A stretch of DNA of 37,695 nucleotides from Acidobacteriota bacterium (GTDB taxonomy: Bacteria > Acidobacteriota > Thermoanaerobaculia > Thermoanaerobaculales > Sulfomarinibacteraceae). A program made the position numbers and the translations under genes. Shown here one piece after another: positions 6,514 to 9,824 of the stretch (positions are counted from its first letter, which is position 1; each line of letters opens with the position of its first letter). The stretch spans positions 1-37,695 of the forward strand of contig JAHECW010000032.1 of NCBI GenBank assembly GCA_024641545.1, given 5' to 3'. The notes under the pieces are model-generated. The model saw only the letters and a program-made list of their open reading frames with translations, had not been told where the DNA came from and made no database searches.

Positions 6514-6586
6514 GGTCACATCGCAGTTTCACCGCAAAGAGCATCACAACATTCAATGAAGCACGAGTGTGGGGTCGCGTACCGCC

Positions 6587-7345
6587 TCAAACGGGGTTCG
6601 GCATCTCGATGTACTCGACCTCGAGGCCGCGCCTCTCGGTGAGCCACCGACCCAGGGCCTGCACGCCGAAGCGCTCGGTGGCGTAGTGCCCCGCGGCGAT
6701 GAAATGGACCCCGTCCTCGGCGGCCTGGTGGAGAACCCACTCCGTCGCTTCGCCGGTGATGTAGGCGTCGAGACCCGCCGCCACCGCCTGGTGGTACTCG
6801 CGTTCGGCGGCGCCGGTGACGATCCCCACCGAGGAGATCAAGCGCCGGTTGCCCTCGAAAACCTGCGGCTCGCGATCGGTGACTTCGGCGACGGCCGAGA
6901 AAAACTCGACGGCGTCCACGGGTTCGGGGAAAACCCCACAGACTCCGGCCGAGGCGCCATGGTGTTCGGCAAACGGCTCGAGCTCGGTGAGCCCGAGGCG
7001 TCGAGCGAGTTGGGCGGCATTGCCCAATTCCGGGTGCCGGTCAAGCGGGAGGTGATAGGCGATCAGGGAAACGTCATTGGCGAGCAGGAGCCGGACCCGC
7101 TCGCGAAAGGAACCCACCAGCCGCGGCGGTTCGTCCCCGTTCCACAACAGGCCGTGGTGGACGATGACGGCATCGGCGCCGTGGTCGACGGCCCGGGTGA
7201 ACAACGCCCGCGAAGCGGAAACCGCGGTCACCACCTTCTGGACATCGGTCGAACCCTCGACCTGCAACCCGTTGGGACAGTAGTCCCGCACGTCATCGGC
7301 ATCCAGGAGTTCGTCGAGATCCGCGACGAGTTGGTGGAGGTCCAT
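6587..7345 (-). CDS. Nif3-like dinuclear metal centre protein
   Basis: 252 aa from ATG 7345: MDLHQLVADLDELLDADDVRDYCPNGLQVEG...VIVHHGLLW...AYHLPLDRHPELGNAAQLA...GHYATERFGVQAL; typical YbgI/NIF3 motifs. Confidence 0.9.
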   Translation of the reverse strand: MDLHQLVADLDELLDADDVRDYCPNGLQVEGSTDVQKVVTAVSASRALFTRAVDHGADAVIVHHGLLWNGDEPPRLVGSFRERVRLLLANDVSLIAYHLPLDRHPELGNAAQLARRLGLTELEPFAEHHGASAGVCGVFPEPVDAVEFFSAVAEVTDREPQVFEGNRRLISSVGIVTGAAEREYHQAVAAGLDAYITGEATEWVLHQAAEDGVHFIAAGHYATERFGVQALGRWLTERRGLEVEYIEMPNPV

Positions 7346-7390
7346 GACCAAATAGTACCCCAAAACCAAACGGTGTATGGTGGAGAGACT

Positions 7391-8362
7391 GTGCGAAACC
7401 TGTCCATCCTTACACGGATCTGCGTGCTCGCCGCCGCCGGCCTCCCGGTGGTGTCGTGCTCCCCCGCGAAACCACCGGAGGAAGATGGATTTCGTGTCCG
7501 GCTGCTGACCTCCGTCACGTTGAGCGGACGCTGGGAGAGATCGGCAGAACGGGGTCTCGGGCTGATCGCAGCCGAACTCGATGCCGACATCGCCCGTTGC
7601 CGTGCGGCGGGCTCGGCCGACCAGCGTTCTCGTCTCCGCGCCCTCGGCCGAGACGGGGTCGATCTCGTCTTCTGCGTCGGCCCGGAGGTCGAGTCGCTGG
7701 TCTACACCGAAGCTGCCGCCTTCCCCGACACCGACTTCGTGATCATCCCGGGCGAGATCCACGGCGCCAATGTCGGCAGCGTGAGCTTCACCCCGGAAGA
7801 GCCGGGATACCTCGCCGGGGCGGTCGCGGCCAACCTCACCGAGGGAGCCAAGATCGGATTGCTCCGCGGTGCCGGTCGGCCCTGGCTGGAGCGCCTCGAG
7901 ACCGGTTTCACCGCCGGTTTCCGTTCGATCAACCCCGATGCCGAGGTCGCCACGGCCTCGGGATTGGAGGGCCCGTGGCAGCTGACCGCGATCGGAGTCG
8001 GCGTCGCGCTCTACGCCACCGACCAGGTCGATCCTCAGATCGTGGCGGCCGCCCACGACGCCGGGTTGTTGCTCGTCGGCGCCGATCCCACCCTTCTTGA
8101 TGCCGAACCGGATCTCGTCATCGCCGTCGTCGAGGTCGATGTCGCCGAGGCGATGCTGCGGATCGCACGGGAGGTCCGCGATCTGACCTTCACCGGCAAG
8201 GTCTACGCCTTCGATCTCGGGTCCGGTGTTCTCGACGTCAGGCTCAATCCCAGATTCTCTTCGCCGGGGCAAACCGGCGATATTCGCGAGGCCCTGGAGC
8301 GGGCCCGTTCCGAAATCACCGCCGGTTGGGTCGAGATCGAAGAGCTCGGAATCGGGCGATAG
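7391..8362 (+). CDS. BMP/PnrA-family substrate-binding lipoprotein
   Basis: GTG start at 7391 after GGAGAG; lipobox-like LPVVSCSP; BMP-family pattern (GVDLVFCVG, FPDTDFVIIPG, NVGSVSFTPEEPGYLAGAVAANLTEGAKIGLL). Confidence 0.75.
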   Translation: MRNLSILTRICVLAAAGLPVVSCSPAKPPEEDGFRVRLLTSVTLSGRWERSAERGLGLIAAELDADIARCRAAGSADQRSRLRALGRDGVDLVFCVGPEVESLVYTEAAAFPDTDFVIIPGEIHGANVGSVSFTPEEPGYLAGAVAANLTEGAKIGLLRGAGRPWLERLETGFTAGFRSINPDAEVATASGLEGPWQLTAIGVGVALYATDQVDPQIVAAAHDAGLLLVGADPTLLDAEPDLVIAVVEVDVAEAMLRIAREVRDLTFTGKVYAFDLGSGVLDVRLNPRFSSPGQTGDIREALERARSEITAGWVEIEELGIGR

Positions 8363-8405
8363 CCGCCCGCTCCTTGCTATCCTTCCGGCGACGGAGGTGC
8401 TCGGC

Positions 8406-8753
8406 ATGAGCGTTGTCATCTATCACAACCCCGGTTGATCGAAGTCCCGCCAGGCGCTGCAGTTGCTGCGCGAGAAGGGCATCGAACCCGAGATCGTCGA
8501 ATACCTCGAGGCACCGCCGGACGCGGCCAAGATCGAGGGGCTGCTCGCACAGCTCGGGATGGAACCCCGCGAGCTCATGCGAAAGAAGGAGAAGGAGTAC
8601 AAAGAGCTCGGTCTCGCCGACGGCGCGCTGAGCCGTGGTGAGCTCATCGCCGCCATGGCGTCGCACCCGCGGCTGATCGAGCGCCCGATCGTCGTCTCGG
8701 AAAAGGGAACCGCCCTCGGCCGGCCGACGGAGAAGATCCTGGAAATCCTCTGA
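8406..8753 (+). CDS. arsC: ArsC-family arsenate reductase-like selenoprotein (in-frame TGA 8436-8438 = predicted Sec)
   Basis: MSVVIYHNPG[U]SKSRQALQLLREKGIEPEIVEYLEAPPDAAKIEGLLAQLGMEPRELMRKKEKEYKELGLADGALSRGELIAAMASHPRLIERPIVVSEKGTALGRPTEKILEIL. TGA falls at the ArsC catalytic Cys; arginines matching R60/R94/R107 of plasmid R773 ArsC are present (ELMRK, LIERPIVV, LGRPTE). ORF track shows only the fragment 8463-8753. Confidence 0.85.
8454..8471 (+). promoter_or_regulatory. Putative bacterial SECIS hairpin
   Basis: GCGC-T-GC-[AGTT]-GC-T-GCGC: 4 bp, U-U mismatch, 2 bp, 4-nt loop with G at position 2 followed by U; loop begins 22 nt after the TGA. Confidence 0.75.
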
Positions 8754-8807
8754 TTCGAATCGGGTTTTCGCACGGGGATGGTCACCAACCGCAGAAGCGG
8801 CTGCAGC

Positions 8808-8867
8808 GGCAGGGACAGCGGCCGCGGCAGGGACGGCGGCAGGGACAGCGGCCGCGGCAGGGACAGC
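8808..8867. repeat. GC-rich tandem repeat, period 30 bp, about 2 copies (GGCAGGGACAGCGGCCGC core)
   Basis: GGCAGGGACAGCGGCCGC at 8808-8825 and 8838-8855, each followed by GGCAGGGAC(G/A)GC. Confidence 0.85.
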
Positions 8868-8960
8868 GTCAGCGCTCCGAGCACGCTGATTGCGCGACGC
8901 TGAGTCGCCGGAGGCGGCCCAGAAGGCCTGAGCTCCAACCGCATACGCTACACTCCACCG

Positions 8961-9824
8961 ATGCCTGAAACCGGAAACGCTCCGACGCCGCGGAACCAGT
9001 TCTCCTTCTCCCGGGTCAAGTCGTACCACCAGTGTCCGCTGCGCTATCGCTATCGCTACCTCAAGGGCTTCAAAGAGGTCTTCCGTTCGATCGAGTCCTA
9101 TCTTGGAAGCGTCGTTCACGATGTCCTCGAGTGGATGTACACCGAGCGCGAACAGCGCGAGAGCCCCTCTCTCGAGGCCGCACTCCAGCTCCTGGCCGAC
9201 CGCTGGGCAGACGGTTTCAACGACGAAATCACCGTCATCCGCAGCGGCGACTGCGCTGATTCCTATCTCGTGACCGGGCGGGAGATGCTCGAGCGATTCT
9301 ACCGGAGCACCTTCCATCGGGATCGTTCGCAGACGGTTGCGCTCGAACAGCGACTCAACCACACGCTCTCCGATGACATCGTCTTCACCGGGTTCGCCGA
9401 CCGGATCGGGCGCACCGAGACCGGTCGCCTCTTCGTGGTGGACTACAAGACCTCGAAAAAGGAAGGCGACCCTTCGGAGTTTTCCGAAGGGCTCCAGGCC
9501 CCGCTCTACGCCGCCTGCGCCATGCGCAAGAACGGCGAGGTCGAGGCCCTCGCCGGCTACCACTATCTGCGCCACGAAAGCACCCGCTGGCAGTCCGTCG
9601 ACGCAGCGCGGGCAGGAGAGCTCCTCGACCGATTTCACCAACTCGCTCGGAACGTCAATTCGGCAACCGATTTCGAACCGCGACCGGGCATCCTCTGCGC
9701 ATGGTGCGGGTTCAACGCCATCTGCCCGGCCGCTGAGGTACCGGCGGCATTCTCGGGCGGCCTCGAAAAGGCGAGAGAGATCAACAACCGTACGCCTTCT
9801 CTTTTCGAGGTCGATTCGCAATAA
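8961..9824 (+). CDS. PD-(D/E)XK nuclease family protein (RecB/AddB-like, possible Fe-S)
   Basis: 287 aa; FSRVKSYHQCPLRYRYRYLKG, GFADRIGR...LFVVDYKTSKKEGD, C-terminal CAWCGFNAICP cysteines. Confidence 0.88.
   Translation: MPETGNAPTPRNQFSFSRVKSYHQCPLRYRYRYLKGFKEVFRSIESYLGSVVHDVLEWMYTEREQRESPSLEAALQLLADRWADGFNDEITVIRSGDCADSYLVTGREMLERFYRSTFHRDRSQTVALEQRLNHTLSDDIVFTGFADRIGRTETGRLFVVDYKTSKKEGDPSEFSEGLQAPLYAACAMRKNGEVEALAGYHYLRHESTRWQSVDAARAGELLDRFHQLARNVNSATDFEPRPGILCAWCGFNAICPAAEVPAAFSGGLEKAREINNRTPSLFEVDSQ

Follow-up and report, generated by a model that had tools for sequence, protein, structure and literature searches.

Arsenate reductases with selenocysteine (Sec) in a UxxS motif were first reported in 2005 in the selenoproteome of the Sargasso Sea, where 14 sequences with predicted SECIS elements were described (PMC1088965). 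The Sec-containing arsenate reductase (UxxS) is also listed in a 2026 review (PMC13188914). We analysed an arsC gene with one internal UGA in a window of 37,695 nucleotides, the term being used here for the whole stretch of Acidobacteriota DNA under study. The gene resembles the known Sec-ArsC (TIGR00014/COG1393) in its family, its UxxS motif, a UGA in place of the catalytic Cys codon and a predicted SECIS just downstream. No difference of kind was found in this comparison, which was made at the level of family and motif. The case is thus a well-supported new example of the known Sec-ArsC, and its mechanism is not new.

The arsC reading frame starts with the ATG at 8406, passes through the TGA at 8436-8438 and ends at a second TGA at 8751-8753, all in the same frame. 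When the UGA is read as Sec, the product has 115 amino acids and begins with MSVVIYHNPGUSKSRQALQLLREKGIEPEIVEYLEAPP. It scored 150 bits against TIGR00014 (arsenate reductase, glutaredoxin), for which the cut-off is 106.05, matched the Pfam family ArsC and aligned over its full length to ArsC proteins of solved structure, 3f0i and 1i9d among them. A serine follows three residues after the UGA (USKS), which together with the TIGR00014 match and the UGA at the catalytic Cys places the product among the UxxS enzymes. Codon 11 is also TGA in three orthologues of a sister genus and is TGC or TGT in the Cys homologues. The ArsC alignment shows no variation at Arg59, Arg93 and Arg106. The numbering is offset by 1 from that of 1i9d, and by this offset we take the three to be the catalytic residues Arg60, Arg94 and Arg107 of the R773 ArsC. 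Judged from its sequence, arsC is a glutaredoxin-type arsenate reductase gene in which a UGA replaces the catalytic Cys codon, and its product is likely an active selenoenzyme. The features of the locus are listed in Table 1.

Table 1. Features of the arsC locus, with positions counted from the first nucleotide of the window
Feature	Position	Strand	Basis
Conserved part of the adjacent upstream gene for a BMP/PnrA-like lipoprotein (context)	7529..8362	+	Pfam Bmp on frame 6569-8362; synteny
Shine-Dalgarno-like GGAGGT, 7 nt 5' of the arsC ATG	8393..8398	+	Sequence; GGAGGT also kept in genus mate G396
arsC frame containing a single in-frame UGA	8406..8753	+	Translation; TIGR00014; Pfam ArsC; structure match
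In-frame UGA, predicted Sec codon, residue 11, catalytic Cys position (HNPGUSKSR)	8436..8438	+	Translation; orthologues
Possible lower stem, CCC 8446-8448/GGG 8477-8479 and UCGA 8439-8442/UCGA 8482-8485	8439..8485	+	Minimum-free-energy fold only, without comparative support
Putative SECIS core hairpin GCGC-U-GC-[AGUU]-GC-U-GCGC	8454..8471	+	Minimum-free-energy folds; pair probabilities; consensus and null models
PD-(D/E)XK nuclease-superfamily gene, downstream (context)	8961..9824	+	Pfam PDDEXK_1; synteny

The original prediction had placed a SECIS-like hairpin at 8454-8471 with its loop 22 nt past the UGA, and we could confirm both its sequence and its coordinates. The stem is formed by pairing of 8454-8457 with 8468-8471 and of 8459-8460 with 8465-8466. 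A symmetric U-U mismatch (8458/8467) lies two pairs below the apical loop AGUU, which occupies 8461-8464. As the prediction had demanded of a genuine element, the stem was present in the minimum-free-energy fold, and this was the case for all six stretches that were tried. The core pairs had probabilities of 0.97-0.99 in contexts of 47-155 nt, and the hairpin dominates the ensemble. Its energy was -8.1 kcal/mol for the core and -9.9 kcal/mol for 8450-8475. The outer CCC/GGG pairing, which had also been proposed, appeared in the minimum-free-energy fold but found no comparative support.

The SECIS of E. coli fdhF, GGU-U-GC-[AGGUCU]-GC-ACC, has a bulged U and a loop of six nucleotides. Both elements consist of a short GC stem in which a U is unpaired close to the apical loop, and the loop itself contains G. 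The arsC hairpin has a U-U mismatch and the 4-nt loop AGUU in place of the bulged U and the 6-nt AGGUCU. The likeness to fdhF therefore appears to be one of type.

For the comparison with the bacterial SECIS consensus, the limits of the bSECISearch model were used. These are a distance of 16-37 nt from the UGA to the apical loop within the coding sequence, an upper stem of 4-16 bp and an energy of -7.5 kcal/mol or lower (PMC13188914). The arsC hairpin lies inside all of them with its 22 nt spacing, 4-nt loop, 6 bp and core energy of -8.1 kcal/mol, and its loop has a G at position 2 followed by a U. It agrees with the consensus in loop size, the G then U, stem length, spacing and energy, and differs from it by the U-U mismatch in the stem. 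No other hairpin with consensus features was found in the 78 nt after the UGA. An Rfam scan of the window at the gathering threshold returned a tRNA-Ala only.

How far such a hairpin might arise by chance depends on the measure. Its energy was not better than that of dinucleotide shuffles (z from +0.62 to -1.25) and is ordinary for such GC-rich DNA. In the other genes of the window, some hairpin within the model limits was in range at 12.9% of the codon positions. When the arsC peptide was recoded synonymously 40,000 times with the codon usage of the window, a consensus hairpin with a G[GU] loop occurred in 0.0825% of the sequences and any G-loop hairpin in 0.93%. Of the ArsC-family loci that were gathered, 17 of the 31 with UGA and 2 of the 123 with Cys, at similar GC content, carried the full consensus hairpin after the active-site codon; when the energy limit was relaxed to -3 kcal/mol, the counts were 28/31 and 18/123, and all of these include related, non-independent rows and are to be read as rates, not as p-values. 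The arsC hairpin exceeds chance given the encoded peptide, but not by its free energy alone.

The same genome encodes a tRNA-Sec with the UCA anticodon, SelA, SelB and SelD, all above the curated cut-offs, and thus has the components that define a Sec-decoding organism. A search of the genome with the AhpC/TSA-fold family found three further genes with an in-frame TGA at redox positions and a consensus hairpin, a number that is a lower bound since the selenoproteome was sampled through family searches. Two of them are peroxiredoxins (TFVU), one with the hairpin loop GGUC at +17 and the other with GGC at +20. The third is a thioredoxin-like gene (FPTUGGC) with the hairpin GCGUGG-AGUUG-CCACGC, and its loop AGUUG starts at +16. 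This gene was found in 21 genomes of the class, 19 of which have the TGA. In the 17 genomes from which the hairpin was extracted, including the genome studied here, AGUU was invariant. All stem cells paired in the 13 distinct sequences, slid controls paired far less, and two pairs were changed on both sides (U-A/C-G and C-G/U-A), that is, in a compensatory manner. Because this hairpin is invariant in AGUU and covaries in its stem, AGUU is credible as the loop of a SECIS in this lineage. The arsC and FPTUGGC elements have the AGUU loop and the same SelB in common; they differ in that the FPTUGGC loop begins 16 nt past its UGA on a perfect 6-bp stem and is conserved in many genomes.

Internal UGA codons were also seen in ArsC-like proteins of other types in the same phylum. 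The TUSTCRKA group (12 loci) carries the hairpin GCAAGGC-GGUC-GCCUUGC, and across its loops GGUC, AGUU and CGUG the first and the last letter (positions 1 and 4) covary. A group of UxxC genes (11 loci; EKPTUTTCR and similar) mostly has a consensus hairpin placed later, with a weak stem and a loop (CGUGA/CGGGA) about 30 nt after the UGA. Sec and Cys forms are intermingled in this one family.

A survey of 20 genomes of the family identified three genomes of a sister genus with the same TGA in arsC, the products being 60-61% identical. By neighbourhood the genes are orthologous, and the UGA codon is identical. Their hairpin, GCAGGC-GGUCA-GCCUGC, has a perfect stem, and 17 nt separate the UGA from its loop; residues 17-18 are Val-Ser there and Leu-Gln in the gene studied here. 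With an energy of about -12.5 kcal/mol, as against -8.1 kcal/mol, the sister-genus hairpin is the stronger one. The original prediction had asked for a conserved hairpin in homologues with the same TGA. This was borne out in substance: a consensus hairpin is present in all three family orthologues, but its loop lies 5 nt earlier and its sequence is another one. An orthologue with the arsC hairpin in the same register was not found, and this genome alone shows precisely this register. No further UxxS arsC with an internal TGA was detected in 149 genomes of the class (E of 1e-20 or better). A scan of contigs with the ArsC alignment from which the Cys/Sec codon had been removed did not add a UGA orthologue, the best 80 loci all being Cys forms. 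Plasmid proteins yielded thousands of ArsC sequences, the best with about 61% identity.

Three genomes of a third genus in the same survey have arsC with TGC at codon 11. These Cys genes contain a perfect 6-bp hairpin, CAGGGC-CUG/UUG-GCCCUG, at about the position of the sister-genus SECIS and with no G in the loop. Of the remaining 120 Cys genes, only 2 have a similar hairpin. The structure is possibly a relic of an earlier use of Sec; another reading is that it arose by chance in one ancestor.

A putative Nif3-like gene, the BMP lipoprotein gene, arsC, the PD-(D/E)XK nuclease gene and the flanks form a neighbourhood that is common to the relatives, with rearrangements. Two genus mates have no arsC, which is therefore dispensable in the genus. 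One of them, G396, has retained between the BMP and nuclease genes the Shine-Dalgarno sequence GGAGGT and the first eight arsC codons (ATG AGC ATC GTC ATC TAC CAT AAC), and the remainder is gone. It follows that the genus has had arsC at this locus for a long time and that this genome did not acquire it recently. In the window, a GC-rich tandem repeat with a 30-nt unit (8803-8874; 2.3 copies, 92% matches) lies between arsC and the nuclease gene. An apparent TGA within the nuclease gene of G397 was rejected, as the alignment had overrun that gene's own stop.

In trees of 106 UxxS-type ArsC sequences (114 columns), the best topologies needed two changes and separated this gene from the sister-genus Sec genes. 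A single Sec clade was not rejected (p-AU 0.22), and we do not claim two independent origins of Sec in the UxxS ArsC. The 5-nt shift of the loop is compatible with a SECIS that moved as well as with a second origin. A tentative reading, to which we give rather less than even odds, is that the arsC SECIS was moved or re-made within the family and also lost, leaving AGUU at +22, GGUCA at +17 and Cys genes with a possible relic. If so, the SECIS would have shifted by 5 nt during continuous use of Sec, or Sec would have been gained twice.

Several other explanations of the TGA and the hairpin were weighed. One is that sequencing or assembly turned TGC into TGA in a Cys arsC, another that the gene is a pseudogene; in either case the hairpin would be a coincidence. 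Indeed, the TGA rests on a single draft genome of 310 contigs, and the gene is absent from two genus mates, one with the first eight codons only. However, the reading frame is undisturbed before and after the UGA, with a good match to ArsC, the codon is also TGA in three independent sister-genus genomes, a chance consensus hairpin is expected in only about 0.08% of the synonymous recodings and the genome decodes Sec elsewhere, which makes decay or error very improbable. Slightly less probable again is that the UGA is read as Sec with the help of some other structure, the hairpin being incidental to the GC-rich coding sequence. The frequency of consensus hairpins in the window genes (12.9% of positions) and the different register used by the sister genus would allow for this, whereas the hairpin at 8454-8471 is the only consensus one in the 78 nt after the UGA, is dominant in the ensemble and has an AGUU loop like that of another SECIS in this genome, whose stem covaries.

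The output of a mechanical ORF caller contains a frame from TTG 8463 to 8753, and on this reading the UGA would be a true stop, translation would start at the TTG and the hairpin would have no role in recoding. The resulting 96-residue protein would lack the active site with its catalytic loop. A Shine-Dalgarno sequence precedes the upstream ATG, the segment before the UGA matches ArsC and the arrangement is conserved in the sister orthologues. We regard a true stop as hardly credible.

We favour the reading in which the hairpin at 8454-8471 serves as a bacterial SECIS for Sec insertion at the arsC UGA, yielding a Sec arsenate reductase, and put its probability at about 0.92. It is carried by what the DNA itself displays, namely the hairpin, the UGA, the intact frame, the catalytic framework, the Sec machinery and sister orthologues with UGA and hairpin. 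The agreement with the model constraints, the location of the UGA at the active-site Cys position in an intact ArsC, the Sec machinery and the other UGA genes support the SECIS assignment made originally. Counting against it are the lack of a same-register orthologue for covariation, the ordinary energy, the commonness of such hairpins, the weaker stem than in the sister genus, the single draft genome behind the TGA and the best trees, which place this gene apart from the sister-genus Sec genes. In the proposed mechanism, the arsC mRNA would present the AGUU loop 22 nt past codon 11, the UGA, and SelB with Sec-tRNA-Sec would bind to this loop. The spacing would allow selenocysteine to be delivered when the UGA occupies the ribosomal A site. 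The predicted product is a glutaredoxin-type arsenate reductase with a Sec nucleophile in the UxxS motif, which would convert arsenate to arsenite. The arsenite could be exported by an Acr3 pump, whose gene (447 bits) lies elsewhere in the genome.

In annotation the gene would be truncated or marked as broken, but it is predicted to encode a likely active selenoenzyme. The AGUU loop, backed by the covarying hairpin elsewhere in the genome, extends the loop sequences predicted for the SelB of this lineage. With two registers of the SECIS, Cys relatives whose hairpin may be a relic, and a deleted copy, the arsC genes of the family form a compact comparative set that is useful for studying how SECIS elements arise, move and vanish under protein-coding constraint.
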